NCBI RefSeq assembly: GCF_003751225.1
Contig: NZ_RJKE01000001.1
Location: 496,001 to 560,000 of the forward strand
Direction of reading: 5' to 3'
DNA length: 64,000 nucleotides
DNA from: Actinocorallia herbida
Lineage (GTDB): Bacteria > Actinomycetota > Actinomycetes > Streptosporangiales > Streptosporangiaceae
The translations under genes and the position numbers were made by a program. Numbering within the stretch: the stretch's first letter is position 1; each line of letters begins with the position of its first letter. Positions 1,840-34,458 of this stretch are shown here, in pieces. The notes under the pieces were generated by a model, which searched no databases, was not told the origin of the DNA, and saw only the letters and a list, made by a program, of their open reading frames with translations.

Positions 1840-1853
1840 CGGGAGCCCGCCCG

Positions 1854-13253: not shown

Positions 13254-13257
13254 GGGC

Positions 13258-16200
13258 TCAGGCCTTTCCGAGGGAGTCGCGGGATGCGAGGGCGTCGAGG
13301 TAGGAGGTGTCGAGGACCGACCATTCGGCCGAGCCGATGGCCTCGACCGTCATTCCGTCCAGCGTAGGGCTGTTCTTGGGCGCCTGAGAGGGGCACAGCA
13401 GCCACATTCCGTGAGGTGCCGTCTCCGGGCGGCGAGCGGCCTGCTGGAGCGCCACGAGCGCCGAGTGACCGCCGTCGGCCGCGTACCGGGCGAGGAGCCC
13501 CGCGTTGTGCAGCAGCAGGACGGTCTTCGGGTCCGCGCCCAGCGCCGTGATGGCCGTCACGGTACGCTCCCAGGCGAGCTTCACATAGGAGGCGAAGCCG
13601 GGAGGGATCGTGCCGGTGCGCCCGTACTTGTCGTCGGCGCGCAGCAGGCCGGCGAAGTCGGTCCCCTGCTCGGCCGCGAGTCCACGCAGCTCCCGGAGGA
13701 AGACGTCGGTGACGTCGACCACGCGCACCGGATGGGTGAGGCCGAGCCGCTCGACCGTGCCGGGCACCTTCTTCTGCGCGATGGTCAGCGCCACGAACCC
13801 GCCTTCGTCGAGCGCGCGCCGCAGGTTCAGCTCGCTGCGGTGCGCGGGCTGACCTGCCGTGCCGTCGCCGGGCGTGAAGGTGAACATGCCCGTCGCGGTG
13901 GACGACGGGTGCGGCGCCGGCGCGGGCGGCCGGAACTCCTTGGTGCTCGCGTCGTAGGTGTAGGGGAAGCCCGCGTCGCGGAGGGCGTCCTGCAGCTCGA
14001 CGTAGGTCGGGGCGGGCTCCAGCACGGCGAGGTCGGGGAACCTCGCGCGCAGCCGCTCCAGCAGCGCGGCGACCCCGATGCCGCGGTCGTGGGCCGCGCC
14101 TGCGGCGGCCTGCGAGATCCGCAGCGCCCGCAGCAGGTCGAGGTCTCGCGGGTACAGGTCGAGCCGAGGGGAGGCGACGGCGGAGCGCGAGGCGGAGGCG
14201 GCCAGCGCCAGCAGGCGCTCGTCCGGGAAGGCGTCGAGACCCTCGGGCGGGTCGACCAGGCGCAGCGCGGCCATGACCTCTGAGCGGCCCGGCAGCGGAT
14301 CGGCGTCGGCGAGCAGGTCGGCGGCCGCACCGAGGGCGAGCGCGTATTCGACCAGCTCACTCGGCGTCGGGTCGTCGGTGCCCGGCAGGGACTCCAGGCT
14401 CACGAAGATCTCGTCGCGGGCCCGCGTGTAGGTGAGCCGGGGCTCGTCCTCCTCAGGCCGTCCGTTCCACGTCTCGGCGAGGATCGCGGCCCGCATCACG
14501 GTCGTGGCGCGGGCGAGGGCCTGCTCCTGGGTGCCCTCTACACCGCCGCGGGCCGCCCGGAACGCCGCGGTGAGCTGTCCGGCGGTCATCACGCCGCCGT
14601 TCCTGGCGAGGACCGCGACGAGCTCGTCGCGGACGTTCGCCAGCCACGGTGCCGCGAACCAGGTTCCGGCGCTCTTGGACAGGGCGTTGTAGACGGCCTG
14701 GGTGGTCATCTCGAACCGGTCGGCGAGCAGCCGGGCGGCGGGCCAGACCGGGGGAGCGGGCTCGTCGTCGGCGGGAAGGCCGAGGGTCCACAGGACGGCC
14801 TTGTATCCCTTCGCGCCGCGCCTCCCGGCGGGCGGGGCGACGAGCCGCGCGAGCACGTCGATCCCCAGGCGCCCCTCGTACCCGGTGAGCTGATCGGTCG
14901 CACCCTCAGGGGCAGGAGGCGGTTCGACGGGGCCGGTGAGCAGAGGCTCCCACTGGCGGCGGCGCTGGAGCAGCTCGCGCCGCATGTTGCGGCCCGCGCC
15001 TCGGGCCCGGGACAGTTCGTGCGGCGGGATGGCCAGCAGTTCGCGGACGGTCGAGGCGCCGAAGGAGTCGGCGAGGGACACCGCCCTGGGCGACAGCCCG
15101 GACGCCCGGAGGTTCGTGTCGAGGGTCGCGGCCTCGGCGGCGGCCTCGCGCTGGTCCTCCAAGGTGGCGCCGGAGGCCTCGGAGCCGATCGGGGCCATCG
15201 CGTCCGCGGCCCGGAACACCTCGCGCCAGGCGTCCTCCATCATGCGCAGCGTGTCGAACCGCTGGGCGACGTCCCGGTGCATGGCCCGGTGGAAGAAGGC
15301 GGTGAGCCCGTCGCGCAGCGCGGGCTCGAACAGCTCGGCGGCGACCTTGGGGTGGTCGTCGCCGGTGACGGCCGGGCTGGTCTGGCCGTCGCCCCAGACC
15401 GGGCGCTCCTTGGTGGCCATCTCGTGCAGCGTGACGGCGGCGGCGTACCGCTCGGCGTGGTCGTCGAACGCCGGGCGGCTGATCGTGCCGAGGAACGGGT
15501 CGAGGTAGCCGCGGGTGCCGGTACGGGTGTCCTGGTCGGAGGCCGCGGCGTGGGAGAAGTCGAAGAGCTTCAGCTCGCGGTTGCGGTCCACCCGCTGGAA
15601 CACGCCGAGGTTCTCGGGCTTCAGGTCGCGGTGCCGCACGCCCTTGCCGGCGAGCTGGTCGAGGGCCCGGAACAGATCTTCGCCGAAGCGTGACAGGTAG
15701 TGGTAGGAGAGCTTGCCGTCGGTGTCGAGCCAGGCGCGCAGCGACTGCTCGCCGGCGTACTCCAGATCCAGGACGGTACGGCCGGCGAGGGTCTGCGGCC
15801 CGTCCAGGAGCCGGATGATCGGCCCGCCGCCGACCTTGGCGAGGATCTGCGCCTCCTTGCGGAGCTGGTCGGCCGCGACGTTCTCGTCGACGGCGACCTT
15901 GAGCACGCGCCGGTCGGTGTCGCGCTCCCCTTCCTCGTCCTCGGTCTCGCAGGAGACGAGGAGGGCGCGCCCGGTCGATCCCGTGCCGAGGACGCGCTCG
16001 ACCGTCCACGCCTTGTGCCCGTCGATCCGGATCACGTTGCCGGGGACCGCGCTCAGCGGGTCGGCCTGGACCGGAGCCTCTTCCTCGGCCCGCCGGGTCG
16101 CGGCGTCGAGCTGCTTCAAGAACCTGTCGGCGGACTCGATCCGCTTGGTGACGTCGCCGAGCGTGGCGTCGTGGACGAGCTGGTCGAGCTCGGTGGACAC

Positions 16201-17592
16201 GCCGTCGGCCACGCCGGACGGGCGCAGGCCGCCGTCCTTGAGCAGGTCCAGGAGGGTCGCCCGGTCGTGGGCAGGGGGAAGGCCGGTGAGGATCAGGTAG
16301 GAGAGCGCGCCGAGGCCGAACATGTCGAGCTCGACGGGATCGGGGTAGCGGCCGTCGAACTCGGGGGCGAGGTAGAGCTGGGCGGAGTCCTCGATGTGGT
16401 CGGCGGCGGCCGGGCTGTTGCCCAGGCTCCGGCCGGAGGACGTGTCGAAGTCGCGCGCCGCGGTCTGCCAGTCGATGATCCGGAGCTGCGGCCTGCTGCC
16501 GTCGGCCTTGGCCGAGACGTAGACGGAGCGGGCGGACAGGGCCCGGTGGTAGAGGGAGCGGCCGTGCGCGTACCGGAGGGCCTCGGCGAGCTGGTGGATC
16601 ATGCCGATCCGCGTCTCCGGCGCCAGGTTCGCGCCGTGCACGTCGAGGTAGGTGTCCAGGCGGAGGTCATCGGACCCGTGGCGGAAGAGGATGGCGGACC
16701 CGCCGAGGTGCTCGCGCAGGTCGACGGCCTGGGCGATGCCGGGGTGGGTGATCCCCTGGAGCACCTGGTACTCGCGCAGCGCCGCACGGTGCACCGAGGC
16801 CCGCGCCTCGTCGGAGGAACTCTGCGGGACCAGGTAGATCCGGACACGCCCCTCCTCCTCCACGAGGCCGGACTTGCGGGCGAGCCTGTCCTCCCAGGTG
16901 GGGCCGGAGTCGAGCGGGGTGGGCTCCAGCTTCCAGTCGTCGGCGTCGCCGTAGCGCAGGTGCCGCTGCGACTGGGAGATGCCGATCTTCTCCAGGAGCT
17001 TCGGCAGATGCTGGGAGAACCGGGCGTCGAGCGGCTGCGGCTTGGAGGCGAGCAGGATGCCCTGCTCGAACGCGGGAAGACCCGACTCGGCGTACCGGCC
17101 GTAGACGGCGGGGCGCTGGGCGGCGTCCAGCTCGCAAACGAGGCGGTCGTCGGTGAGGAACACCGACGGCTCGACCCGCGGGATCGGCACGTTGAGACCC
17201 AGCTCACGGACCGCCCACTGGAGCTGGCTGCGCAGCTCCTTGGACTTGCGGTCGGTCAGGTGCAGCGGGTTGGTAAGGGTCAGGATGCGGCGGTCCCGGG
17301 TGTGGAACCGCCAGGTCTGCCCCGAGTTGACCACCCGGCCGGGGTGCGCCTTGAACTCCACAAGGTGCAGGCCGCTGGGAGAGGCGAGAAGGAGATCGCA
17401 CTCGTTGACCCGGCCAGACCGGGCGGTGAAGGTGAACGTCGCCCAGGCCCGGTACGGCTCGTTCTTGGGCATCAGCCCGCGGACGTAGTCCAGAGCCTCC
17501 TGCTCATGCGGATGCTCCGAAGGCCGCTCCTGGAACCACCGCCGCACTTCCCGCGGCGGCTGGGGAACAGGCCTACGACCACCGGATGCCAC
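13258..17592 (-). CDS. pglW: BREX type 2 serine/threonine kinase PglW with NERD domain
   Basis: Protein of 1,444 residues. An N-terminal NERD (nuclease-related) domain keeps the D66...E79-F-K81 signature. A first kinase-like domain (about 215-500) has HRA in place of HRD and IDW in place of DFG, so it looks like a pseudokinase. A second kinase domain (about 530-800) has a glycine loop LGTGSTG, HRDLKPEN at 654-661 and DFS at 678-680, so it is probably active. An HhH-like segment and a long C-terminal region follow. The GTG start at 17592 is preceded by GAGGAGA. It is the first gene of the BREX operon and is known in Streptomyces to be a kinase needed for Pgl defence. Confidence 0.93.
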   Translation of the reverse strand: MASGGRRPVPQPPREVRRWFQERPSEHPHEQEALDYVRGLMPKNEPYRAWATFTFTARSGRVNECDLLLASPSGLHLVEFKAHPGRVVNSGQTWRFHTRDRRILTLTNPLHLTDRKSKELRSQLQWAVRELGLNVPIPRVEPSVFLTDDRLVCELDAAQRPAVYGRYAESGLPAFEQGILLASKPQPLDARFSQHLPKLLEKIGISQSQRHLRYGDADDWKLEPTPLDSGPTWEDRLARKSGLVEEEGRVRIYLVPQSSSDEARASVHRAALREYQVLQGITHPGIAQAVDLREHLGGSAILFRHGSDDLRLDTYLDVHGANLAPETRIGMIHQLAEALRYAHGRSLYHRALSARSVYVSAKADGSRPQLRIIDWQTAARDFDTSSGRSLGNSPAAADHIEDSAQLYLAPEFDGRYPDPVELDMFGLGALSYLILTGLPPAHDRATLLDLLKDGGLRPSGVADGVSTELDQLVHDATLGDVTKRIESADRFLKQLDAATRRAEEEAPVQADPLSAVPGNVIRIDGHKAWTVERVLGTGSTGRALLVSCETEDEEGERDTDRRVLKVAVDENVAADQLRKEAQILAKVGGGPIIRLLDGPQTLAGRTVLDLEYAGEQSLRAWLDTDGKLSYHYLSRFGEDLFRALDQLAGKGVRHRDLKPENLGVFQRVDRNRELKLFDFSHAAASDQDTRTGTRGYLDPFLGTISRPAFDDHAERYAAAVTLHEMATKERPVWGDGQTSPAVTGDDHPKVAAELFEPALRDGLTAFFHRAMHRDVAQRFDTLRMMEDAWREVFRAADAMAPIGSEASGATLEDQREAAAEAATLDTNLRASGLSPRAVSLADSFGASTVRELLAIPPHELSRARGAGRNMRRELLQRRRQWEPLLTGPVEPPPAPEGATDQLTGYEGRLGIDVLARLVAPPAGRRGAKGYKAVLWTLGLPADDEPAPPVWPAARLLADRFEMTTQAVYNALSKSAGTWFAAPWLANVRDELVAVLARNGGVMTAGQLTAAFRAARGGVEGTQEQALARATTVMRAAILAETWNGRPEEDEPRLTYTRARDEIFVSLESLPGTDDPTPSELVEYALALGAAADLLADADPLPGRSEVMAALRLVDPPEGLDAFPDERLLALAASASRSAVASPRLDLYPRDLDLLRALRISQAAAGAAHDRGIGVAALLERLRARFPDLAVLEPAPTYVELQDALRDAGFPYTYDASTKEFRPPAPAPHPSSTATGMFTFTPGDGTAGQPAHRSELNLRRALDEGGFVALTIAQKKVPGTVERLGLTHPVRVVDVTDVFLRELRGLAAEQGTDFAGLLRADDKYGRTGTIPPGFASYVKLAWERTVTAITALGADPKTVLLLHNAGLLARYAADGGHSALVALQQAARRPETAPHGMWLLCPSQAPKNSPTLDGMTVEAIGSAEWSVLDTSYLDALASRDSLGKA

Positions 17593-19877: not shown

Positions 19878-21206
19878 CTAGTGTCCTGCGCCTGAAATTC
19901 GTCGGCAAAATCGTGCGAGGGATTCGAGGATCTCTTCGGCGGTCTTGGTCCAGATGAAGGGCCGGGGGTTGCTGTTCCAGTCGTTGATCCAGTCGCGGAT
20001 GTCGGCTTCCAGGGCCTGGACGCTTTTGTGGGCGCCACGGCGGATCTTCTGGTCGGCCAGGAAGCCGAACCAGCGTTCCACCTGGTTGATCCAGGAGGAC
20101 CCCGTCGGGGTGAAGTGCATGTGGAAACGTGGGTGCTTGGCGAGCCACGCTTTGATCGCCGGGGTCTTGTGGGTGCCGTAGTTGTCCACGATGAGGTGGA
20201 CGTCCAGGTCGGCGGGCACGGTCTTGTCGATGGTGATCAAGAACTTCTTGAACTCCGCGGCCCGGTGCTGGCGGTGCATCTGGCCGATGACGGTGCCGTC
20301 GGCGATGTCGAAGGCTGCGAACAGGGTGGTGGTGCCGTGCCGGGCATAGTCATGGGTGCGGCGCTCGGGCATGCCCGGCATCATCGGCAGAACAGGTTGC
20401 GACCGGTCCAGCGCCTGGATCTGCGACTTCTCGTCCGTGCACAGGACCACCGCCTTCTCGGGCGGGTCGTGGTAGAGGCCGACGATGTCGACGACCTTCT
20501 CGACCAGCAGCGGGTCGGTCGACAGCTTGAACGTCTCAGCCCGGTGCGGCTTGAGCCCGAAATCACGCCAGATCCGGCCGATCGTCGACTTCGACAGGCC
20601 GCTGCGCTCGGCCATCGACGCCCGCGACCAGTGTGTGGCGTTCTTCGGCGTCTCCTCCAACGTCGCCACCACCACTTCCTCCACCTGATCCAGAGTGATC
20701 GACGGAGGCCGGCCCGGCCGCTCCTCGTCCATCAACCCATCCAACCCCAGCCGGACGAACCGGCCACGCCACTTGGAGACGGTGGAGGCGTCCACCCCCA
20801 ACCGGGCGGCGACGTCCTTGCTGCTCATCCCGTCCGCACACGCCAATATGATCTTCGCTCGCATCGCCAGGACCTGCGCGGACTTCGCCCGCCGAGCCCA
20901 CCGCACCAGCACCACCCGCTCATCATCACCCACCCTCAGCACGGCCTTGGGCCGGCCCTCCCGAGGCGCATCCAGCAACCCCTCCACCCCACCGCGCGCG
21001 AACGCCGCCCGCCACTTGCGCACCGTCGTCACCGACACCCCTAGATCACGCGCCACCCGCGCGTTACTCGCCCCGGGCTCAGCACACGCCAGCACGATCC
21101 CCACCCGAAGAGCCAACGCCGACGACTCCACTGACACACCCACCAACCGCGCCCGCTCGACCTCACCCAGCTCGATCTCGACCGCAGCAGGACCCCGATT
21201 CGCCAT
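19878..21206 (-). CDS. IS630-family transposase with two helix-turn-helix modules
   Basis: 442 residues, longer than the usual 340-360. Two similar helix-turn-helix modules lie in tandem ([15 protein letters not shown] and [15 protein letters not shown]), each followed by a GRP-type linker (EGRPK, PGRPP). The DDE domain shows CTDEKS (first Asp), VDNYGTH (second Asp) and WINQVERWF (Glu). The reading frame runs through the left terminal repeat, and its TAG stop uses the TA target duplication plus one flanking base. The start is [13 protein letters not shown] at 21206; an ATG at 21221 is also possible and neither has a clear ribosome binding site. Confidence 0.9.
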
Positions 21207-21252
21207 AACAACACGATACATACTTAACCAACGAATTTCAGGCGCAGGACAC
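19881..21252 (-). mobile_element. IS630-family insertion sequence A
   Basis: 1,372-base element bounded by perfect 22-base terminal inverted repeats (19,881-19,902 and 21,231-21,252; outer end GTGTCCTGCGCC). It is flanked by TA on both sides (19,879-19,880 and 21,253-21,254), the target duplication expected for the IS630/Tc1 superfamily. It holds one transposase gene. It abuts a second, unrelated IS630 element with a single shared TA between them. The perfect ends and intact gene suggest a recent arrival. Confidence 0.93.
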
Positions 21253-21254
21253 TA

Positions 21255-22447
21255 GTGGCTCGTCACGCAACCTTGCTGGGGTAACTGGTCCAGGAGCGGA
21301 TCGGGGAGCTGGCCGCGAAGCTCGTCTTCGGTCGGGCATGCTGGTTGTGCCAGCGGATGTAGGCGCCGATCGCGGTGTTCTGTTCGCGGTGGCTGCGGTG
21401 GTCGGTGCCGTTGAGCGCGAAGTAGCGCAGGGCGGCGAATTCGGATTCGATCCAGTTCAGCCAGGAGCCGTAGGTCGGCAGGAACACCAGGTCGACGTCG
21501 TTGGCGGTCGCCCATGCCCTGACCTCGGGGTGCTTGTGGGGCGAGTAGTTGTCGCAGATCACGTGCAGTCGCTCGCCGGGCCATCGTGCGCGCAGGGACT
21601 TGAGGAAGGACAGGAACTCGCGCCAGCGTTTCCGGTTGCGGATCCGGTAGTAGATCCTGCCGGTGGCCAGGTCGAGGGCGCCGAGCATGTGCCGGACCCC
21701 GTCGTTGCGGTTGAACGTCGCGCGCAGCCTGGCCGGATGCCCGGCCGGCCGCCAGGTCTTGCCCTTGCGGGGCATCAGGTTGAGCGGCCCGAACTCGTCC
21801 ACGCAGATCACCCGCCCGCCCTCGGGCGGGGTGTCGTAGAGGGTCAGGACGGCGTGCATCTTGGTGATGAAATCCGGATCGTTGCTGCTCTTCCAGGTCG
21901 TGGTGGTCTGCCACGACACCCCGCCGGTCTTCAGGATCCGCCGCAGGTGCTCAACGCTGAGCGACGTGACCAGCCCGATGTTCTCCAGGTGGGCGGCGAG
22001 CTTGGCCAGGCTCCACGTGGAGAAGGCGGTGATGCCCCATTCGGCGGGGGTCGTCCGGGCGATCAGGCAGATGCGCTCACGCACCCACTCACCGATCCTC
22101 CTCGGACGGCCCCCGCTCCATTTTGGGTCCAGCGCATCGAACCCCCGCTCATTGAACGCGTGCACCACCGACCGGACATAGTCGTCGCTCACCTGCATCA
22201 ACGACCTGATCGCCGATGCCGACTGGCCCTGAGCGGACATCAAGACAACGATCGCCCGCCGCAGCTTCACCGGGTCCTTCGCCGACCGGGTGATCCGCTG
22301 AAGCTTGCGGCCCTCCTCCATCGACAACGCACGCACGAACACCTCGGGCTTACGCGCCACGACCACCTCCCAGAACAGGCCTGGGACAAGGCTCCCGCGC
22401 CCACCCTCGGAGATCAAATAGCCCAGGAACGTTCAGGGACGAGCCAC
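21255..22447 (-). mobile_element. IS630-family insertion sequence B
   Basis: 1,193-base element with terminal inverted repeats: GTGGCTCGTC at the left end and its complement at the right end are perfect over 10 bases, with scattered matches for about 16 more. TA flanks both ends (21,253-21,254 and 22,448-22,449). The left TA is also the right-hand TA of element A, so the two elements stand directly side by side in the same orientation. The single transposase is intact. It is unrelated in sequence to element A beyond the shared superfamily. Confidence 0.9.
21263..22360 (-). CDS. IS630-family transposase
   Basis: 365 residues from a GTG (reads MARKPEVFVRALSMEEGRK) preceded by GGGAGG; an in-frame ATG at 22417 lacks a good site. 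A helix-turn-helix lies near the N-terminus (SASAIRSLMQVSDDYVRSVVHAFNERG), then a second winged segment. The DDE catalytic domain has ICVDEFGPL, VICDNYSPHKH and GSWLNWIESEF. It catalyses cut-and-paste transposition of element B into TA. Length and motifs are typical, and no frameshift is seen. Confidence 0.93.
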   Translation of the reverse strand: MARKPEVFVRALSMEEGRKLQRITRSAKDPVKLRRAIVVLMSAQGQSASAIRSLMQVSDDYVRSVVHAFNERGFDALDPKWSGGRPRRIGEWVRERICLIARTTPAEWGITAFSTWSLAKLAAHLENIGLVTSLSVEHLRRILKTGGVSWQTTTTWKSSNDPDFITKMHAVLTLYDTPPEGGRVICVDEFGPLNLMPRKGKTWRPAGHPARLRATFNRNDGVRHMLGALDLATGRIYYRIRNRKRWREFLSFLKSLRARWPGERLHVICDNYSPHKHPEVRAWATANDVDLVFLPTYGSWLNWIESEFAALRYFALNGTDHRSHREQNTAIGAYIRWHNQHARPKTSFAASSPIRSWTSYPSKVA

Positions 22448-24453: not shown

Positions 24454-26043
24454 CTACCCTCCGGCTTCGATGGAAGCGAGATGCCGCTGTTGGAGCGCCT
24501 TGCGCTCGACCTCCGGGATCATCATCGACTCAGCGAGCACGGCGGCGAATGCGTCCACCTGGGTGCCCTCGACGTCGGTGGGGAAGAGCCAACGGATGTT
24601 CTCGTCCCGTGTGATGAGGTCGATCGTGCGACGCCCGCCTTTGTCCTGCGCGGCGGCTGACCTGACGTAGCGCACCTGGTCGAGCGGGATGTCCTGGCGG
24701 AGTTCGCCCTGTTCCAGGAACGCGCTCGCCTTGGCCGTGATGATGCGGCGATCGGTGATGGCGACCAGCGTCCTCGCCGCTCCCTTGTCCCGCGCCGCCG
24801 CCACCTTCTCCTTCGCGCCGCTGAGGATCGCCGAGACGGGGCCGAGTGCGTCGAGTTGCTCGGGGAATCCGAGGACGCGAACGGTCTCACCGTCGTCGAG
24901 GAACCAGCGTAGGACGCGCAGGTACGGCTCAGGGCCCAGGGATTCCGGCGCGCAGACGACGGCCGGGGCCTCGAGTGGAGGTGCCGGCGGACGGAGGACA
25001 TCTGCAAGGGGCTCGATGGCCTCGAGGAGATGGGCCGCGGCATGACGGGCCGCCGCCGAGTCCCTCCGCTTGCTCGGCATGGAGAGCGTTTCGCGTCCGG
25101 AGAGCTCGGCGATGATCCGCAGTTCCCTGGTCAATGAGTTGACGAGTCTCTTCGTCTCGGGGAGCGCGACCTCGAACTCCGCACGAGTGTCGCGCAGGAT
25201 GACGTCGACGAGTCGGGCCTCCTTGACGTCCACGGATTCTCGCGCCCTCGCGGCGTGGAGCGCCTGGTAGCCGATCCACGCCTTGAGGGAGGACAGAAGG
25301 GCGTTCGCGTCGAAGACGATCGCCTCGGCGTTGGCCTCGAGATACGCACGGCGGCCGGTCGCGTCGACCCCGTGGATCTGCCGGAGGTGCTTATCGACTT
25401 TCAGCCGATACTGCCTACGCTGCGCGATCAGTGCCGTTTCGCTGCCGACTATCTTCTCCCACTCGGACGTCGTGACCGATTTGATCTCCCGAGCCCTGTC
25501 GATGGCCTGGTCGATTGTGGCGACGAGCGCCATGAGCTCGGCCCATTGCCCGATACGGATTTCCGCCAGTACCCGGCTCGTCAGCGCGATGTTGGTCTTG
25601 ACCAGGCCGGTGATCTCACTCAACTGCATCTGCAGGGCGACCATGGCCAGCGCGGGCCCGAGCGCGGTCGCGGCCTGTGCGGCGCTCACCGCGGTCACCG
25701 GGACGAAGCGGGCCTGCGCGATGACGCGGCCGTTGAGCATCACGGCGCCGAGGTTCGCGCCGTCCTTGACGGCGAGCGTCGCGCCGGAGTTCAGCAGCGA
25801 TTGGGTCACGCCGCCGATCCTGTACAGACCCTGCGCGCTGGCGACCGCCGTCGCGAGGTTTCCGGCTACGGTCGCCGTGTTCCCGATCGAGGACAGGACA
25901 GCGGAGATCCGAGCACGGTCGGAGGTCGGTGCAAGCCAGGAGTCGAGCAGATCGAGTTCGAGTTCCGCAGGGAGCTCGCCGAAGGGCACGACGACCCCGG
26001 GGACCACCTCCACCAAGACCAAAGAGTCCGAAGTTTCCCGCAT
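24454..26043 (-). CDS. Unknown 529-residue protein with PH-like C-terminal domain
   Basis: Starts MRETSDSLVLVEVVPGVVV at 26043 with GGGAG upstream. Residues about 45-150 are rich in Ala, Val, Gly and Ser (TVAGNLATAVASAQGLYRIGG and VTAVSAAQAATALGPALAMVALQ), compatible with amphipathic or membrane-associated helices. The centre (150-380) is long and helical. The last 120 residues resemble a bacterial PH-like domain (TLVAITDRRIITAKASAF, then RTIDLITRDENIRWLFPTD). The gene lies 107 bases after the DUF262 gene on the same strand and may belong to that operon or have its own promoter (TATAAG at 26,106-26,111 on the minus strand). I do not recognise the family. Confidence 0.8.
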   Translation of the reverse strand: MRETSDSLVLVEVVPGVVVPFGELPAELELDLLDSWLAPTSDRARISAVLSSIGNTATVAGNLATAVASAQGLYRIGGVTQSLLNSGATLAVKDGANLGAVMLNGRVIAQARFVPVTAVSAAQAATALGPALAMVALQMQLSEITGLVKTNIALTSRVLAEIRIGQWAELMALVATIDQAIDRAREIKSVTTSEWEKIVGSETALIAQRRQYRLKVDKHLRQIHGVDATGRRAYLEANAEAIVFDANALLSSLKAWIGYQALHAARARESVDVKEARLVDVILRDTRAEFEVALPETKRLVNSLTRELRIIAELSGRETLSMPSKRRDSAAARHAAAHLLEAIEPLADVLRPPAPPLEAPAVVCAPESLGPEPYLRVLRWFLDDGETVRVLGFPEQLDALGPVSAILSGAKEKVAAARDKGAARTLVAITDRRIITAKASAFLEQGELRQDIPLDQVRYVRSAAAQDKGGRRTIDLITRDENIRWLFPTDVEGTQVDAFAAVLAESMMIPEVERKALQQRHLASIEAGG

Positions 26044-26150
26044 GCGTCTTCTGCTCCCTCGTTCGCCGGTCCCGTGATTCAAGCGCAGACCAGTGCTTCT
26101 GCGGGCTTATACGGAGAATTGCGAAGCTTGTTGGGGTGAGGGACGGCGGG

Positions 26151-27881
26151 TCATTCGGTGTCGATGTCAGGTTCTGCGGCGCGTTGGGTGGGGATCGCGA
26201 CGCCCATCTGGTTGATGAACGCGAGTTCCTGCTCGGCGAGACGGGAGGCGCGCAGGGAGATGAACTCCTCGGCCGCTCCCGACTCGTAGAGGACAAGGGC
26301 GTCGGGGGACATGCCGACGGCGCCGTCCTCGGCGGCCATGCGCAGGCTCCGGTGGAGGAACCGGTCGGTCGGGATGGCGAAGGAATTGGGCTCCAGGACG
26401 GCGCGGTTGCCTGGGCTCGAGCCGTTCGCGAGGCCGGAGATGGAGATGAGCTTGCGGAAGCCGGCGGTGTCGTGGTCGCGGACGACGTCGACGGCCGCGT
26501 ACTCACGGCCGTTGAGGGAGCGGCGAATCGGGTAGGTCTTCAGCTCCCACAGCACGTATGCGCGGACACGGGCGCTGCGCAGGTCGAACCGCTCGGGGAA
26601 CGGGCGGGGGCGCTGCTCGACGAAGTCGAACATGCCCTGCGAGCCCGCGAAGTCCGCCAAGTGCATCTGGCCTTCGGCGAACGCCCACATGTCCTGGATG
26701 GACTGGCGGCTCGTCGTGGAGTTGACGCTCGCGAAGTGGCCCGACCAGGAGGTGATCCAGAACCAGCGGACCAGGGCGTCGCTCTGCCCCTGCGTCGGCT
26801 CCGGGCGCAGGTGGAAGAACTGGGCGAGCAGCATGAGCTGGGCGTTCGGATACGGCACCAGCCGCGCCAGCGGCGCCCCGACCTTGGTCTTGAGGAAGGC
26901 GACCGCGCGGGAGAGCGCCTCGTCGGTGTCGTGCACCGCGCGCTCGATCTTGCCCTCGACGCGGCGGGCCAGGACGTCCCAGCGCGCTCCGGTGACCTCC
27001 TCCTCACCGGCGACGGCCAGCAGTGCGCGGAACCCGGTCGTCGAGTTGATCCGGCCGAAGCCCTCGCCCTCGATCCGCTCCAGGATGCCGTCGATGCTGT
27101 CGGCCAGCGTGGTGGAACCGCCCGCGTAGGTGAGAGCCGAGACCATCTGGTCCGGGCTCATCTCCTGGCCCTTGCTGTTGACTCGGGAGAAGACCTCGAC
27201 GGCCTGCGAGAGGTCGCCGCCCAGCAGCTTCACCACCGAGATCTTGTAGGACTTGATCCGCTGGGCGACCTGCTCGGCCTCCTCGATGAGCGCATCGAAT
27301 GCCGGGCCCCGGCGGGTGTCGCCGAGCCGGCGTGCGTACGACAGGAAATCCAGGGTTTTCAGAACCGAGCGCATCGGCAGGTAGTTGTCCGGCGGCGCCG
27401 CGGCCTTCCGCCAGTGGACATAGCGGTTCGAGCGGGTGTCGCCCGCACCGAGGACCCGGTACACGCGCCACTTCCAGTCGTCCGGGCCCTCCTCGCCGTC
27501 GTCGTCCCGCCGGTAGAGGCAGGAGTACAGCGTGGACAGGCGCTGGTGCCCGTCGAGCACGTAAGTCAGATCGGAGCCCGAGGACTCCGGTACGCGCAGG
27601 CCGCCGACCTGCTTCAGGCTTTCCAGCTCCAGGTTCGTCTTCCACAGCAGGACGCTGCCGATCGGGTAGCCGCGCTCGATGCTGTCGAAGAGGTCGAGCA
27701 TCTGCTCGGGGCGCCAGACGAACGGCCGCTGGAACTTCGGGACCCGCAGCTGGCCGACGTGCACCTCGTCGAGGAAGCCCTCCAGCAGGTTCACCTCGGG
27801 CTGTACCCGGAGCTGCCCGCCGCCGCTGGAGGTGAGGTTCTCCGGACCGGTGAGGCCGTGCTCGTCCGCGTCGGTGGTCAT
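26151..27881 (-). CDS. DUF262 domain protein (GmrSD-like N-terminal module)
   Basis: 576 residues. The N-terminus has the DUF262/ParB-Srx-like signature: VPKFQRPFVWRPEQMLDLFDSIERGYPIGSVLLWK (about 47-81), split by a loop from LDGHQRLSTLYSCLY (109-123). The usual DGQQR is DGHQR here (D110-R114). DUF262 binds nucleotides and drives the GmrSD type IV restriction enzymes and other defence proteins. I see no DUF1524/HNH nuclease domain at the C-terminus, so a partner may supply cleavage. It starts 10 bases after the TOPRIM-like gene, with AGGAAAG upstream, and forms an operon with that gene and the ATPase. Confidence 0.88.
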   Translation of the reverse strand: MTTDADEHGLTGPENLTSSGGGQLRVQPEVNLLEGFLDEVHVGQLRVPKFQRPFVWRPEQMLDLFDSIERGYPIGSVLLWKTNLELESLKQVGGLRVPESSGSDLTYVLDGHQRLSTLYSCLYRRDDDGEEGPDDWKWRVYRVLGAGDTRSNRYVHWRKAAAPPDNYLPMRSVLKTLDFLSYARRLGDTRRGPAFDALIEEAEQVAQRIKSYKISVVKLLGGDLSQAVEVFSRVNSKGQEMSPDQMVSALTYAGGSTTLADSIDGILERIEGEGFGRINSTTGFRALLAVAGEEEVTGARWDVLARRVEGKIERAVHDTDEALSRAVAFLKTKVGAPLARLVPYPNAQLMLLAQFFHLRPEPTQGQSDALVRWFWITSWSGHFASVNSTTSRQSIQDMWAFAEGQMHLADFAGSQGMFDFVEQRPRPFPERFDLRSARVRAYVLWELKTYPIRRSLNGREYAAVDVVRDHDTAGFRKLISISGLANGSSPGNRAVLEPNSFAIPTDRFLHRSLRMAAEDGAVGMSPDALVLYESGAAEEFISLRASRLAEQELAFINQMGVAIPTQRAAEPDIDTE

Positions 27882-27891
27882 GGCGTCTTTC

Positions 27892-28863
27892 CTAGATGAT
27901 CCGGTCGATCAGGGCAAGCAGCGCCTTCAGCTCTTCGCACACCTCGCTGCCGAGCGCCGCGAAGTCCGACTCTTTCACGTTCCCGGCCTCCACCTCGCGT
28001 TCGAGAAGCTGCGGCAACCCTTCGCCGAATCCCTCTCTCAGGCCTTTCACCGTTGCAGGGGGCAGCGTCGCGAAGAGTTCGGCTTGGGCTGCGGGGACGA
28101 CGGCCTGCTTCGTCTTCTTGTCGGCGAAGCCGTTCTTGATGTCGATGTGGGCACGCTGCTCGGGAATGAGCGACTTCAGGAGGGAGATCCTGGTGGTGAG
28201 GGCGGACTGGCGTCCCTTGACCGCGGCCAGCACCTTGGTGGGAATGTAGTTCTCCACCTCGCGGCGGATCAGGATGTGTCCCTCGATCGCATCCTTGCGC
28301 AGGTCGGCGGCGACCTTCTCGTGCTTGGACCGCTCGTTCGGGGTCATGCGGTCGCCGTCGAAGACGAACACGACTCGGCGCAGCAGCCGGAAGCCGGCGG
28401 CCTCGTGCCGTGCGCGCTTCGGCAGCTCGCCCCCGCCCCCGCTGTGCGTGAACTCCAGCCATGATTTCCGTTCGGCCGCGATCACGCGCTCTCGCCCGAA
28501 GACCCGGGCGACGGCCAAGAGGAACGAGCGGTCGGCGTCGCCGTTCTCGACCACGACCTTGGCGGACCGCCCGAGGTCGGCGGTGTGGTCGGCAAGACTG
28601 TCAGCGGTGACCGAGATGGTGTCGGCCCGCTCACGGCGGCGGCTCGACGTCCAGGCACGGGCGGACACGGACGCCTTGCGAGCGAATCTGGTGTAGGTCG
28701 ACGCCCTGGAGGGCGTGTGCTCGCTGAAGAAGCACTCGATCGCGGGGAGCTGCCGTGGATCGACGACCCAGTCGTGGCGGTCCTCGGTGAAGTACCGCAT
28801 CAGCGTGACGACGTCCTCGAAGCCTCCGGTGGTGAAGGCGTCCGATGCGACCTCGACCCTCAT
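27892..28863 (-). CDS. TOPRIM-like (DUF4435/OLD-type) protein
   Basis: 323 residues. The spacing of acidic motifs matches a TOPRIM fold: VVVENGDADRSFL (E106, D109, D111), VVFVFDGDRMT (D169, D171) and HILIRREVENYIP (E202, E204, N205). The EN-Y element is typical of DUF4435 proteins, the AriB-like partners of AAA ATPases. It starts inside the stop of the ATPase gene (ATGA), so a stable complex with that ATPase is likely. It may be a metal-dependent nuclease or an effector released by the ATPase, as AriB is in PARIS. The family call is by motif reading only. Confidence 0.65.
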   Translation of the reverse strand: MRVEVASDAFTTGGFEDVVTLMRYFTEDRHDWVVDPRQLPAIECFFSEHTPSRASTYTRFARKASVSARAWTSSRRRERADTISVTADSLADHTADLGRSAKVVVENGDADRSFLLAVARVFGRERVIAAERKSWLEFTHSGGGGELPKRARHEAAGFRLLRRVVFVFDGDRMTPNERSKHEKVAADLRKDAIEGHILIRREVENYIPTKVLAAVKGRQSALTTRISLLKSLIPEQRAHIDIKNGFADKKTKQAVVPAAQAELFATLPPATVKGLREGFGEGLPQLLEREVEAGNVKESDFAALGSEVCEELKALLALIDRII

Positions 28864-30098
28864 GCCTCATCCCTCTCGAGCTGGGCCCTCATGAGCTTCT
28901 TCGTCTCCTCGAAATCCTCCGAGAAGACGTCCTCCGGCCAGTAGTCCAGATCGCCGTAGGCGTCCACGTGAATCCGGCGTGCCCGTGAGATCCCGTCAGC
29001 GTGCTCGACGAAGTAGACCGCGAGGTCATCCGGCGAGAGCTTCTCCTCGGCGATCCGCCGGCGCAGGCGCAGCAGCAGGGTTTCGCTGTGTGTCTCCACG
29101 AGGAATCGGCCACCGCGCTGTACACCCTGCAGGAACAGATCACCGAGCACCGCGTGGAATGCGGGGTGCAGGTGCAACTCCGGCTCTTCGATGATCTGCA
29201 ATGGTGTCTCGTTGTCCGGTCGCAGCAGGTGCTGTGCTTGCTGGACGACAAGAGGGAGTACCTGTGCGACACCGGTCCCGGAGTCCAGCAGGTTGACCGC
29301 GAGTTCCGGGTTGGCGGTCGAGCGCAGGACCACGGCGAAGAGGGGACCCTGCGGCTCCACCTCGATACGCCAGTCGCCGAGGCCACCGCTCAGGAGCTCG
29401 TTCACTGCGTTCAGGAGTCTGCCGTCGCGCCGCACGTGGTCGTTGACCAGCATTCCCGCGGCGTTCTCGCCGGAACTTCCCACATCCGCGGCCATCCGCG
29501 ACGGCAGGCGTGTGAGCCGCGCCGGTCGCTGCCGGTAAGGGCTCAGGTAGTGGGAGGCTCCGAAGGACTCCCTGACCATCTGGACGAGTTCGTCGAAGGG
29601 GCTGCCGTCCAGGAGCGTGGGGAGCAGGCCCTGGAACCGGGCGGTGAGGGGTGGGGGGATTTCGTTCCCGTCGACGGTCAGGACGTACGTCCGAGGCCCG
29701 TAGTCGCCGTCCCACCGCAGGAGGACGTCGCGTATGGAGCTGCCGAGTGACAGGTCACGGACGAACTGAGTGCGCTGTTCGTCGATGTTCTGGATGGTGG
29801 CACCGACCTCGCAGGATTCCCGCCCGTCCGAGACGAGAAAGTCGATGTGGAGCGGGCGGTGTGGGTTGCGGCCGTAGACGAGGTCGAGGAAGTCCGGAGG
29901 GTCGTCGCCGAGCTGGTCGAGGTCGAGCGGTAGCGAGGAATCGGTGTGGATTCCCGTCTCCAGCAGCAGCGGCAGCCGGGTCAGCGCGCTCTTGCCCGAG
30001 TTGTTCTTCCCCAGGATCAGGGTGATCGGCCGCAGGTCGAGCTCCTGCCTCTCCTTGAAGCACCGGTAGTTCTCGACGGCCATCCGCAACAGCGCCAT
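28860..30098 (-). CDS. AAA ATPase with DUF3696-type C-terminus
   Basis: 412 residues of the ABC-like/SMC-type AAA_15/AAA_21 ATPase class found in OLD, PARIS and other defence systems. Residues 1-37 give FRCF-like YRCFKER and the Walker A GKNNSGKS (30-37). LLDSGTGVAQVLPLVVQ is the signature-like helix, IIEEPELHLHP is the Walker B with the D-loop, and FLVETHSETLLLRLRR carries the switch His. The end, GDLDYWPEDVFSEDFEE, matches the DUF3696 tail. It is the first gene of an operon with the TOPRIM-like and DUF262 genes. Confidence 0.88.
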   Translation of the reverse strand: MALLRMAVENYRCFKERQELDLRPITLILGKNNSGKSALTRLPLLLETGIHTDSSLPLDLDQLGDDPPDFLDLVYGRNPHRPLHIDFLVSDGRESCEVGATIQNIDEQRTQFVRDLSLGSSIRDVLLRWDGDYGPRTYVLTVDGNEIPPPLTARFQGLLPTLLDGSPFDELVQMVRESFGASHYLSPYRQRPARLTRLPSRMAADVGSSGENAAGMLVNDHVRRDGRLLNAVNELLSGGLGDWRIEVEPQGPLFAVVLRSTANPELAVNLLDSGTGVAQVLPLVVQQAQHLLRPDNETPLQIIEEPELHLHPAFHAVLGDLFLQGVQRGGRFLVETHSETLLLRLRRRIAEEKLSPDDLAVYFVEHADGISRARRIHVDAYGDLDYWPEDVFSEDFEETKKLMRAQLERDEA

Positions 30099-30416: not shown

Positions 30417-32447
30417 GTGTCCCAGACTCCTCGTTGTGCACGACGAAGCAGCGTGAGAACGCTCAGGGAGGAGCTGACGCACTCCTCGATATCGAAGACG
30501 GTCTTCAAGCAGACGTTGGCCGACCACTACAAGGCGGCGACGGGTAAGACCTCCACCGACAAGCAGAGGGAGACCTGGGTCTCGAGTCTGTCGGCTCTCG
30601 CGCGGGAGCTGATAGAGGCCGGTCTGGGCGATCTCGAGATGATCGTGGAGTACGTGATGCCCACGAACAAGGGCAGTCAGGCGGACGTGGTGCTCGCGGG
30701 TACCGACGCGCAGGGAAACGACGTACTGATGGTCGTCGAGCTGAAGCAGTGGAGTGCTGCCGCCGCATACGAGGACGATGCTCTCTTCGATGAAGATGAC
30801 TGGGACGAGGGGGACCTTCCCAACGTCTCCGAGGATGAAGAGGCAGATGAAAGTCCTGCCGGCGCTCAGGCCCACGCGCACTCGGGCAAGTCAGAGCTTT
30901 TCGTTGTTCCGGGAATGTCGGTGCCGAAGGCACACCCCCTAGACCAGCTGGAGGGCTACTGCGAGACGATCATCAACTACGTCGAGATGGTCCGGGAGCG
31001 GCCGGAGGCCGTTCACGGCGTGGTGTATCTGCACAACGCACAGAACTCGACTGTTGACGACCTGCTGCAACGCCCTGAGGAGCCCCGGAGACGGATCTTC
31101 ACGGGAAGCACGCGCGGGGCGTTCATCGGCTACCTCCAGCAGGTTTTCGCGCCCGACCCCGGGTGGGAGGTCGGAGATCGCTTTCTGAACAGCGCCATAG
31201 CACCTAGCCCGTCCCTCCTGGAGATGGTGGCCGACATCATCGCGGACCGGCGCCACTTCACCCTGCTCGACGGGCAGGTGGACGCATATAAGGCCGTGGA
31301 GCAAGCGGTGCGCAACGCAGAGGACGACGGAACCAAGCGCGTGGTCGTCATCGTGGGGCGGGCGGGCTCGGGGAAGACGGCGATCGCCCTGGAACTCCTC
31401 GGGAATCTGGCCAGGAGGGGAATCGCCGTCGAGTTCGCCGCAGGCTCGGGTGCGATGGCCGAGACTGTCCGGAGAGAACTCGCGAAGAATCGCAAGGGAC
31501 ATCGCAAGCTCGTCAACAAATTCCACCGGTACGTCGATCCAGACCGCAGTCTGGACGTGCTCATCGTGGATGAGGCCCACCGTGCGAGAAGCAAGACGCG
31601 GATACAGTTCCAGAGTCGTTACAACAGCGATGAACACCAGCTCAGAACGCTCATCAAGGCTGCCCGTGTAGTGGTCTTCCTGACGGATCATCATCAGAGC
31701 ATCCGGCCGAACGAGAACGGCACCGTCACGGCCATCAAGAACGCCGCACAGACTCTCGACGTGTGCTTCTATCCGGTCATGGAGTTGAAGGACCAGTGGA
31801 GATGCGGAGGCAGCGGCATCTTCGAGGAGTGGCTCCGTGCCCTCCTCGGTCTCGGCCGTGAGGATCACGAATCCCGCGTGGGTGAGAGTGCTGTGAAGTG
31901 GGACCCCGACCCATCCTTCGAAGTGCGGCTCGCGTCCTCGCCGGAGGCGATGGAGAACTTCCTCATCGAGAGGATCGAGGAGGGCAGGTCTGCGCGTATC
32001 GCCGCCGGTTACTGCTGGGCGTGGGACAAGAATCCAGATGGGGAACTCACGAAGGACGTCGTCGTAGGGGACTGGAGACGTCCCTGGAACAATCCCCTTG
32101 GGAAAAATCTGGGAAGTGCTCCACCCTCACAGCTGTGGGCCAGCGCAGACGGGGGCTTTGAACAGATCGGCTGCGTCTACACTGCTCAGGGCCTCGAATA
32201 CGACTGGGCCGGGGTGATCGTCGGGGACGATCTGGTGGTCCGTGACGGCCACCTGGTCACGGACAGGTCGAAGAGCGCCGATCGAACCGTGCGCTCCAGA
32301 AAGGTGTCCAATGAACGTTTTGACCAACTGATCCGTAACACATACTACGTCCTGTTGACCAGGGGCATGCGTGGTGTGGTCATCTATTCAACAGATGCGG
32401 AAACTCGCGAGTACCTCCGTGAGCTGATCGCTGCAACGGTGGATTGA
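30417..32447 (+). CDS. PD-(D/E)XK nuclease-like / DUF2075 helicase fusion, copy 1
   Basis: 676 residues from a GTG preceded by GAGG. The N-terminal part has a PD-(D/E)XK-like core (IVEYVMPTNKGSQADVVLAG ... VVELKQWS: Asp, then E-x-K). An acidic insert of about 35 residues (FDEDDWDEGDLPNVSEDEE) follows and is absent from copy 2. The C-terminal DUF2075/superfamily 1-like helicase has the Walker A GRAGSGKT (314-321), the Walker B VLIVDEAH, QWRCGGS, VYTAQGLEYDWAGV and LLTRGMRGVV. It probably unwinds and cuts nucleic acid. GC is lower than in copy 2: 34 of 60 bases against 40 of 60 in the DEAH region. Confidence 0.85.
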   Translation: MSQTPRCARRSSVRTLREELTHSSISKTVFKQTLADHYKAATGKTSTDKQRETWVSSLSALARELIEAGLGDLEMIVEYVMPTNKGSQADVVLAGTDAQGNDVLMVVELKQWSAAAAYEDDALFDEDDWDEGDLPNVSEDEEADESPAGAQAHAHSGKSELFVVPGMSVPKAHPLDQLEGYCETIINYVEMVRERPEAVHGVVYLHNAQNSTVDDLLQRPEEPRRRIFTGSTRGAFIGYLQQVFAPDPGWEVGDRFLNSAIAPSPSLLEMVADIIADRRHFTLLDGQVDAYKAVEQAVRNAEDDGTKRVVVIVGRAGSGKTAIALELLGNLARRGIAVEFAAGSGAMAETVRRELAKNRKGHRKLVNKFHRYVDPDRSLDVLIVDEAHRARSKTRIQFQSRYNSDEHQLRTLIKAARVVVFLTDHHQSIRPNENGTVTAIKNAAQTLDVCFYPVMELKDQWRCGGSGIFEEWLRALLGLGREDHESRVGESAVKWDPDPSFEVRLASSPEAMENFLIERIEEGRSARIAAGYCWAWDKNPDGELTKDVVVGDWRRPWNNPLGKNLGSAPPSQLWASADGGFEQIGCVYTAQGLEYDWAGVIVGDDLVVRDGHLVTDRSKSADRTVRSRKVSNERFDQLIRNTYYVLLTRGMRGVVIYSTDAETREYLRELIAATVD

Positions 32448-32604
32448 ACGCGGGAGGCCACCCGGGTGAGACTCCTGCGACGGTCTAGGGCAGGCGAGGC
32501 TAGGCTGATCTGCGTTCAGGCGGCCCGACGGGCTTTCGGTCATCGGTTTATGCCGGAGATGCCCCCACCCGCGCGTTGATTCGTGCTGCCCGGGGGTGGG
32601 TTGG

Positions 32605-34458
32605 GTGACGGCGTTCCGTCATTCCGCGTCGAGTGTTGCGGCGTTGGCGTCTCCGGTGGAGCGGGTGTTGAGTGAGCGGATCGCCGAGCATCTCAGGGTG
32701 GCGATGCGGGTGAATCCGGGGGAGTCAGAGCGGCGGTCGTGGGATCGGAGCCTGCCGGTGCTGGCGCGGGATCTTGTGGACGCGGGGCTCGGGCAGGTGG
32801 AGATGCTGGTGGAGTACCAGCTTCCGCTGACGAGCAAGCGGGCGGATGTGGTGCTGGCCGGCGTCGACCATGACGGGAACGACGCATATGTCGTGGTCGA
32901 GCTGAAGCAGTGGAGTCGCGCCGAGTCCTACGAGGACGACGAGGAACTCGTGCTCGTGGAGAGCATGCCGGGAGGGCCGAAGCTGCACCCCTCGCGTCAG
33001 GTGGGGCAGTACTGCGAGTACCTACGGGACTTCGTGGCGGCGCTGGACGGTCGGCAGCTAGGGGGCGTCGCCTATCTGCACAACGCCGAGGACGGGGACG
33101 TGCTCGACCTGCTCGGGCAGGTCACGTCCGAAGAGGGGCGGCTGTTCACCAAGACGCGGCGCGGCGCGTTCCAGGAGTACTTGAAGACGCGGTTCTCCGA
33201 GGCGCCCGGGGCGGGTGCGGGCGACCGGCTGCTGGAGAGCGCGATCCGGCCGTCGAAGCAGCTGATGAGGCTTGGGGCGGAGGAGATCAAGAAGCAGGAG
33301 CAGTTCGTTCTGTTGGACGAGCAGCGGCTGGCCTATGACCTCGTGATGCACGCCGTGAAGGCCGCTCACCAGGCGGACAGCAAGCGCGTCGTGCTGGTCA
33401 CGGGCGGGCCGGGGAGCGGGAAGAGCGTCATCGCACTCTCGGTGCTCGGCGAGCTGTTCCGGCAGGGGAGGACCGCGCTCCACGCGACGGGCTCCTCGGC
33501 TTTCACGACGACACTTCGCAACCATGTCGGGAAGGGGACGAAGCGGGTCAAGGACCTGTTCAAGTACTTCAACAGCTTCATGGCGGCGGAGAAGAACTCG
33601 CTCGACGTGCTCATCTGCGACGAGGCGCACCGGATCCGGGAGACGTCGGTCAACCGGTACACGAAGGCGGCGCTGCGCACGGGTCGGCCGCAGATCGACG
33701 AGCTGATCGCGGTCGCGCGGGTGCCGGTGTTCCTGCTCGACGAGAACCAGGTCGTGCGGCCGGGGGAGCTGGGCAGCCCCGCCGAGATCCGGGCCTATGC
33801 CGAGGGCCAGGGGTTCACGGTCCACGAGGTCTCGCTGGACGCTCAGTTCCGTTGCGGGGGCAGTGCGGCGTACGAGGACTGGGTGCTGCGGCTGCTCGGG
33901 CTGCGCGGCGACGGGCCGGTCCCGTGGCAGGGCGACGACCACTTCCGCGTCGAGGTGGCCGAGAGCCCCGGGGCGATGGAGAAGCGGCTCCAGGGGGAGC
34001 TGGACTCCGAGTACTCCGCGCGCATGACCGCCGGGTACTGCTGGCGGTGGAGCGACCCCGTTGACGGCGAGCTCGTCCCGGACGTGCGTATCGGGGGCTG
34101 GGAGAGGCCCTGGAACGTCAAGGGGGACCGGGCGGTCGGGATGGCGCCGCCCAGCCCGATGTGGGCGACCGCGCCCGGCGGGTTCGGGCAGGTGGGCTGC
34201 GTCTACACCGCGCAGGGGTTCGAGTACGACTGGAACGGCGTGATCCTCGGGCCCGATCTCGTGATCCGGGGAGGCAGGTTCACGGCCGTGCGGGAGGCGA
34301 CGAAGGACCCGGCGTTCAAGAAGACGACCAGTCCGCAGGAGTACGACCGGCTGATCCGGCACACCTACAAGGTGCTGCTCACGCGGGGAATGATGGGCAC
34401 GGTCCTGTACTCGACGGATGAGGAGACCCAGGGGTTCCTGGACGGGCTCGTCGGTTGA
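32605..34458 (+). CDS. PD-(D/E)XK nuclease-like / DUF2075 helicase fusion, copy 2
   Basis: 617 residues, paralogous to the gene just upstream. The nuclease-like core is VEYQLPLTSKRADVVLAG ... VVVELKQWS. The helicase motifs are GGPGSGKS (267-274), VLICDEAHRIRET, DAQFRCGGS, VYTAQGFEYDWNGV and LLTRGMMGTVLYSTD. It lacks the acidic insert of copy 1 and has higher GC, so the pair is not a recent simple duplication. The start is GTG 32605 (MTAFRHSASS), with GGGGGTGG upstream; GTG 32596 is an alternative. The 157-base gap to copy 1 allows a separate promoter. Likely role: nuclease-helicase in defence or DNA processing. Confidence 0.85.
   Translation: MTAFRHSASSVAALASPVERVLSERIAEHLRVAMRVNPGESERRSWDRSLPVLARDLVDAGLGQVEMLVEYQLPLTSKRADVVLAGVDHDGNDAYVVVELKQWSRAESYEDDEELVLVESMPGGPKLHPSRQVGQYCEYLRDFVAALDGRQLGGVAYLHNAEDGDVLDLLGQVTSEEGRLFTKTRRGAFQEYLKTRFSEAPGAGAGDRLLESAIRPSKQLMRLGAEEIKKQEQFVLLDEQRLAYDLVMHAVKAAHQADSKRVVLVTGGPGSGKSVIALSVLGELFRQGRTALHATGSSAFTTTLRNHVGKGTKRVKDLFKYFNSFMAAEKNSLDVLICDEAHRIRETSVNRYTKAALRTGRPQIDELIAVARVPVFLLDENQVVRPGELGSPAEIRAYAEGQGFTVHEVSLDAQFRCGGSAAYEDWVLRLLGLRGDGPVPWQGDDHFRVEVAESPGAMEKRLQGELDSEYSARMTAGYCWRWSDPVDGELVPDVRIGGWERPWNVKGDRAVGMAPPSPMWATAPGGFGQVGCVYTAQGFEYDWNGVILGPDLVIRGGRFTAVREATKDPAFKKTTSPQEYDRLIRHTYKVLLTRGMMGTVLYSTDEETQGFLDGLVG

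Follow-up and report, generated by a model that had tools for sequence, protein, structure and literature searches.

In PARIS, an ABC/OLD-type ATPase (AriA) and a TOPRIM nuclease (AriB) are encoded by separate genes, and AriB, a two-metal nuclease of transfer RNA (tRNA), is restrained by a hexamer of AriA until the binding of a phage trigger (excerpt of PMC12409363). Menshen (NsnA-NsnB-NsnC) brings together a DUF262 protein and a DUF3696 ATPase, and DUF262 is listed in the available part of PMC10952713 for Menshen, Dazbog, PD-T4-2, GmrSD, BrxU and SspE. The locus described here lies in a 64,000-nucleotide stretch of the Actinocorallia herbida genome (contig NZ_RJKE01000001.1, positions 496,001 to 560,000; hereafter the window, in whose numbering all positions are given) and consists of a DUF3696 ATPase gene (A), a middle gene (B) and a DUF262 gene (C), for which a preliminary description had proposed a defence role. 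By sequence, the three genes belong to the catalogued candidate family PDC-M55, and the trio is probably one mobile defence module of PDC-M55 type, in which a split, OLD/PARIS-like ATPase-TOPRIM pair would be gated by a DUF262 nucleoside triphosphatase (NTPase).

Identity and layout of the three genes

Gene A (28860-30098, minus strand) encodes an OLD/ABC-type ATPase of 412 residues with a DUF3696 tail (PDC-M55A), gene B (27892-28863, minus strand) a candidate TOPRIM nuclease of 323 residues (PDC-M55B) and gene C (26151-27881, minus strand) a DUF262/GmrSD_N protein of 576 residues (PDC-M55C). The three open reading frames were confirmed as co-directional, with A and B overlapping by 4 nucleotides and B and C lying 10 nucleotides apart, in agreement with the overlap and the 10-base spacing first described. 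Pfam placed AAA_15/AAA_21 and DUF3696 (28.7 bits, cut-off 22) in A, which upholds its earlier assignment as an ATPase with a DUF3696 tail, and GmrSD_N (DUF262) in C at 7.4e-25; for B it listed no family at E-values up to 1. In PADLOC-DB 2.0.0, A, B and C matched the three PDC-M55 models (PDLC04707-04709) near full length, as adjacent and co-directional genes, with E-values of 7.5e-178, 1e-115 and 8.7e-236, respectively, and no difference between the trio and PDC-M55 was found. The preliminary description knew of no named system with exactly this trio. Since all three proteins match a catalogued system, that novelty is lost and the trio as an unnamed system is ruled out, though PDC-M55 is a computational candidate system rather than a proven one. 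PDCs stem from a 'guilt-by-embedding' approach and most are without experimental validation, according to an excerpt of a 2026 study of immunity in archaea (PMC12988326), and the name PDC-M55 was not found in the literature searched, preprints being outside that search. What is added here to the known trio is an invariant TOPRIM residue set in B, a degenerate HNH site in C relative to solitary relatives, a DUF262-only form of C and a form of C with a reverse transcriptase.

The layout of the trio recurs in other loci, which carry L numbers below as G numbers denote genomes (G000 being that of the window). The spacing was measured in 24 fetched loci with L031 excluded, by a rule choosing the start of B closest to the expected overlap, and in the 23 other loci the start codon of B lies at most 7 nucleotides from the expected overlap with A. 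The gap between B and C was -4 to 12 nucleotides in 21 of these 23, the exceptions being L050, which is broken, and L042, where the gap of -212 is probably a start of C called too early. In the window, a promoter scan gave no promoter-like site and a terminator scan gave four terminator-like sites against 2.0 expected, all four on the plus strand.

Distribution and co-inheritance

The trio was found in the same order at 43 distinct places, the window and 42 others, when repeats were collapsed by the end of B and damaged or short copies were included. Its hosts are actinobacteria, enterobacterial and Paracoccus plasmids and one myxobacterium. Among 341 genomes of the same family a model of B matched 24 at E≤1e-3, 21 of them over the full model; of the other three, one (G468) holds what is left of a decayed trio, and in two (G570, G679) a different protein was partially matched. 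Exactly the 21 genomes with full-length B, and no other of the 341, gave a match of A at E≤1.2e-80, and weaker A matches (4.2e-33 to 5.9e-54) were seen in eight further genomes, G468 included. A, B and C are ordered in the window and in 20 fetched loci of these genomes. Damaged trios were also seen, A and C being in pieces in L050 and C short in L049 and L051. As A and B are confined to one and the same set of 21 genomes out of 341, with C in order in the loci fetched and in the window, the linkage is not due to chance and the trio is a real unit. C itself matched at E≤1e-30 in 54 of the 341 genomes, and weaker C matches are common outside trios, so that such DUF262 proteins also occur alone.

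Within a broader sample of the phylum, B was matched in four of 396 genomes, namely in G000 over the whole model, in G178 over positions 57-313 with A and C adjoining, and in two by partial matches. Species genomes were also scanned with the B alignment, a search that detects only places fitting either of two peptide patterns. Of the 35 loci obtained, 34 have A-B-C in order; together with the window and the 20 same-family loci this bears out the conserved linkage that had been anticipated. In the one remaining locus (L086, Halolamina), ATPase and TOPRIM are joined in a single chain of 551 residues, in which Pfam OLD-like_TOPRIM exceeds its cut-off. Plasmid-borne trios were found in Leclercia (two records), Paracoccus and Nonomuraea. 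In the Leclercia plasmid p707804-3FII (L031:7731-9449) an IS1 lies inside B, with A and C annotated whole, and in pYUSHP29-2 B is uninterrupted. Carriage of the trio by phages was rejected, as a tblastn search of 50,697 phage records gave no match and none was confirmed in viral contigs.

Pairwise distances among 30 sequences were correlated at r 0.91 for A and B, 0.85 for B and C and 0.91 for A and C, values reached by 0 of 2000 permutations in each case; the Enhygromyxa outlier was left out of this test and L060, L067, L066, L080, L025, L086 and L002 were set aside beforehand. Since shared host descent alone gives such correlations too, they speak for co-inheritance and not for function. Mean identity was lowest in B (0.39), the other two proteins reaching 0.50 and 0.53.

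Protein B as a candidate TOPRIM nuclease

Seven residues of B (E106, D111, D169, D171, E202, E204 and N205, the last followed by Y206 in the window) are invariant in 34 of 34 aligned proteins, and they are invariant in a second set of 22 as well, except for one S at position 202. Of the TOPRIM-like acidic motifs proposed from the window alone, the six acidic positions in this list were retained and D109, with D in 3 of 34 rows, was not. In the AlphaFold2 model of B (mean pLDDT 95.1) the middle part runs beta101-105, alpha108-121, beta136-140, alpha147-156, beta164-168, alpha182-190 and beta194-197, and E106 follows the first of these strands and D169/D171 the third, as expected of TOPRIM.

A profile of B was run with filters off against 1056 open reading frames from 28 loci. 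Below E 1e-4 it matched trio members in L002 and L085, a decayed trio in L025 and five single-chain ATPase proteins (L003, L004, L026, L027 and L086), in all of which it was the C-terminal part that was matched (6.8e-12 to 9.3e-5). These five outside relatives of B all carry AAA_15/AAA_21, and Pfam OLD-like_TOPRIM was above the cut-off in L086, below it in L003, L004 and L027, and absent in L026; in L027 the B-matched stretch lies directly after the OLD-like_TOPRIM segment and not on it. The ENY motif is kept in four of the five and reads EYY in L004. The information from the five lies in their nature, all being OLD-type ATPase proteins by their sequences. The top fold match of B in the PDB, though weak, was AriB of PARIS (8v46_D), with GajA at rank 38. 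Because of the invariant motifs, the similarity to the C-terminal part of OLD-type proteins and this fold match, B is read as a TOPRIM protein by sequence and strand order, and as a nuclease candidate.

The trio resembles PARIS in having an ABC/OLD-type ATPase and a predicted TOPRIM nuclease in separate genes, with acidic motifs of TOPRIM type in B. PARIS has two genes, whereas in the window and all 20 loci fetched from genomes with full-length B there is a third, the DUF262 gene, after them. DUF4435, which we take to be the Pfam family of AriB, was matched neither in B nor anywhere in G000, and it was matched in 1 of 119 genomes; by the missing DUF4435 and the third gene the trio is ruled out as PARIS. 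OLD single-chain nucleases and GajA of Gabija share the ATPase plus TOPRIM logic of the trio, where ATPase and TOPRIM are encoded separately and a DUF262 gene is added, in contrast to the single chain of L086.

The ATPase of gene A and its relation to Menshen

Protein A contains GKNNSGKS at residues 30-37 and EEPELHLHP at 304-312, presumably the Walker A motif and the Walker B region, as well as H337 and, in the DUF3696 tail, W387-P388. In 41 A proteins, a set that excludes the broken L025, L031, L050 and L080 and the single-chain L086, residues G30, G35, K36, E304, E307, H337, W387 and P388 are invariant. The next families of A, far behind PDC-M55A, were NsnB of Menshen (1.6e-40) and HEC-03B (5.9e-39), with AriA at 6.5e-20. 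The preliminary description had seen the logics of PARIS and GmrSD united in one operon, which is fair as logic, but the ATPase stands nearer to NsnB than to AriA and in this too the trio differs from PARIS.

It is unlikely that the trio is a subtype of Menshen that shares its DUF262 and DUF3696-ATPase machinery and its mechanism and differs in the third protein. The NsnB match of A, a weak NsnA match of C (7.8e-8) and an OLD-type TOPRIM associated with one Menshen component in the accessible text of PMC10952713 would agree with such a subtype. No such TOPRIM was seen in L096, the one Menshen locus compared, which comes from an actinobacterium and holds NsnA (DUF262), NsnB (DUF3696 ATPase) and NsnC; its NsnC has no Pfam TOPRIM match, and DUF262 is encoded first there and last in the trio. 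B showed no similarity to NsnC of L087 or L096 and matched no PADLOC family besides PDC-M55B, and was for this rejected as an NsnC, while the NsnC model PDLC03879 had no match in G000 (two further NsnC models were not searched). C, moreover, is closer to HEC-05 (5.1e-21), its next family after PDC-M55C, than to NsnA. The trio has two kinds of protein in common with Menshen, the DUF262 protein and the DUF3696 ATPase, and from the comparison with this one locus it is set apart by the absence of NsnC, where it has a predicted TOPRIM protein.

Four other DUF3696 ATPases of the same family (L115-L118) had no B-like or C-like open reading frame within the 10-11 kb fetched, and plasmid DUF3696 ATPases were found with other partners. 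In three of the plasmid records L122, L123, L124 and L125 the ATPase gene and a small gene precede an 'RNA ligase family' gene, and in the fourth an HNH gene occupies that place.

The HNH site and tail of protein C

The model of C (mean pLDDT 79.8) matched the folds of BrxU (E 1.5e-10, 640 alignment columns) and SspE. Solitary relatives were drawn from 43 non-trio C matches, of which 16 regions were fetched and 15 C-like proteins recovered (none in L107), and no A-like gene was found in the fetched stretches around these 15. An HHxxP-type motif is present in 11 of the 15, the other four falling outside the pattern used, and the 11, which have the motif by selection, were aligned with 32 C proteins from trios (28 taken from alignment A3, and four more). 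DGxQR, with a variable third letter (DGHQR at residues 110-114 in the window), is kept in all 43 rows and hence in 32 of 32 trio proteins. At the HNH motif, the first His is present in 0/32 trio proteins, the second His in 20/32 and the Pro in 2/32, and 26-29 columns after the motif are empty in 31/32 rows (L028 is poorly aligned there). Where solitary relatives read HHFFP, C of the window reads RKLIS, with Lys at the second His position. By this alignment the HNH site of trio C is degenerate, with residual activity possible in some members, and the earlier observation of a DUF262 protein without a visible nuclease tail is in keeping with it.

C thus shares with GmrSD and BrxU the DUF262 domain with DGxQR and a BrxU-like fold match, and differs in lacking an intact HNH (DUF1524) motif and in being accompanied by A and B in the loci counted; the degenerate HNH rules the trio out as GmrSD/BrxU. 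More improbable still than a Menshen subtype is that C is a working nuclease, acting in BrxU-like type IV restriction of modified DNA with A and B as accessory or immunity factors. The BrxU fold match and the one motif His kept in 20 of 32 proteins are consistent with a cutting C, but the first His is gone throughout, the Pro and the later columns are nearly always missing and the window has Lys at the second His. In two loci, furthermore, C consists of nothing but its DUF262 part, with A and B open, and it is the acidic residues of B that are invariant.

These two loci are Streptomonospora nanhaiensis (L060:10972-11697, 241 residues) and Nocardiopsis lucentensis (L067:9740-10510, 256 residues); they belong to one genus-level group by their labels, and the DUF262-only form may represent one event or decay. 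In one locus, of Enhygromyxa salina (L085:10597-12741), the third gene of the trio encodes a protein of 714 residues with DUF262 (9.4e-26) followed by a reverse transcriptase part (RVT_1 1e-7; PADLOC RT_UG33 2.9e-68). From the DUF262-only and reverse transcriptase forms it follows that the tail of C is variable, with A, B and the DUF262 part retained. For the DUF262-reverse transcriptase protein no single place in plasmids covered 80% among the matches listed (best 15 of 59 records), and no description of such a reverse transcriptase-linked PDC-M55-like system was found in the literature searched, the Menshen domain-variety paper (PMC12065111) being outside that search. On a Klebsiella plasmid (L121:4994-7587) a C-like DUF262 gene adjoins a putAbiC gene (Pfam), with A-like and B-like open reading frames absent in the stretch.

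Proposed mechanism

In the reading preferred here, that of a split ATPase-TOPRIM module with a DUF262 NTPase as its gate, A (an ABC-class, OLD-like ATPase) and B (the putative TOPRIM nuclease) would be the halves of an OLD protein in separate genes, as in PARIS. A probably keeps B inactive and frees or activates it upon a trigger, a model of restraint and release that is borrowed by analogy from AriA/AriB. C is likely a switch or sensor rather than a cutter, because its HNH site is degenerate, and would recognise in an NTP-driven manner some feature of an invader, for example modified DNA or a phage product. B is the presumed cutter because it alone in the trio has a complete, invariant set of nuclease residues, and when triggered it would cut RNA (tRNA, as AriB) or DNA (as OLD and GajA) and so halt the infection or the cell. 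A complex of the trio proteins, a sensing partner, metal use, a trigger, a substrate and protection against phages would all be expected of such a module.

Several observations weigh against this mechanism. The AriB match of B, to which the preliminary description had pointed and which holds as the top match and in the TOPRIM strand order, is weak (E 0.03, probability 0.60, TM 0.26), and the model of B has no PDB fold match at E≤0.001, just as B has no Pfam family and no PDB sequence match by single sequence or profile. The match of B to OLD-type proteins is not independent, because the five were fetched through B searches, and DxD is kept in three of them and is DxE in L003 and L026. The second HNH His kept in 20 of 32 trio C proteins makes the loss of nuclease activity uncertain for the family as a whole. 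Position 305 of A, perhaps the catalytic Glu by comparison with ABC ATPases, as we assume, is E in 29, Q in 11 and H in 1 of 41 proteins (E in the window), and because of the Q in these 11 ATP hydrolysis may not be universal among A proteins. BREX, finally, adjoins the trio in a minority of loci, as detailed below.

A broader proposal, put forward tentatively and itself rather doubtful, is that PDC-M55 is a modular platform of a split OLD-type ATPase-TOPRIM effector, a DUF262 NTPase gate that lost its own HNH on joining, and an exchangeable tail, represented in a myxobacterium by a UG33 defence-type reverse transcriptase. If true, the UG33 tail would couple the activation of TOPRIM with DNA synthesis in a single system.

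Genomic context

The nearby BREX locus of the preliminary description was recovered as a type 2 BREX set by PADLOC matches (1-17592, minus strand), which is given as context only and comprises brxHI (1-1839), brxD (1854-3161), pglZ (3158-5830), brxC (5794-9891), pglX (9600-13253) and pglW (13258-17592), all on the minus strand. The trio lies about 8.5 kb upstream of pglW on the same strand, and two IS630-family transposase genes (19878-22417) separate it from BREX. Flanks were compared by means of the window's own BREX, IS630 and Schlafen (SLFN) helicase proteins and two other neighbour proteins. Type 2 BREX genes were present in the fetched flanks of 4 of 33 actinobacterial scan loci (L053, L054, L056 and L071), a raw count without control. 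In two of the four the trio begins 21 and 45 nucleotides after brxHI on the same strand, and in the other two it lies between pglX and pglW in opposite orientation, with the pglW gene in two frames in the case of L056; L075 gave a weak pglW match only (3e-11). OLD-ABC ATPases with nucleases frequently accompany BREX, according to a partial text of PMC12839542. Least likely of all is that the trio works for a mobile element, or in the manner of an addiction module, instead of in phage defence. In favour of this, it occurs in Leclercia on conjugative plasmids, next to traI and a gene for an integrase, and in Paracoccus on a plasmid that is mobilizable, and one plasmid copy has an IS1 insertion in B only. 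The chromosomal BREX adjoining the trio in 4 of 33 loci fits defence better, however, and the conserved unit has no small antitoxin-like gene.

Two tandem paralogues with 42% identity and a Schlafen group 3 helicase domain (30417-32447 and 32596-34458) are divergent from the trio and have a partial PADLOC PDC-S41 match; these helicases had no match at 1e-10 in the fetched loci. Directly downstream of C, a gene of 542 residues (24454-26082) has no Pfam, PADLOC or NCBIfam match, and it was rejected as a part of the trio as it had no relative at E 1e-5 in 24 and 41 loci (six of the 41 being only 2-4 kb).

Implications

With these results a catalogued candidate system gains a testable mechanism with named residues. 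The trio ties together three defence logics, those of the OLD/PARIS effector, the DUF3696 ATPase and the DUF262 NTPase. Solitary DUF262 proteins with an HNH motif, set against the trio DUF262 protein without an intact one, may exemplify the conversion of an enzyme into a switch, and the variant with a reverse transcriptase suggests that the putative switch protein C may have a swappable tail.

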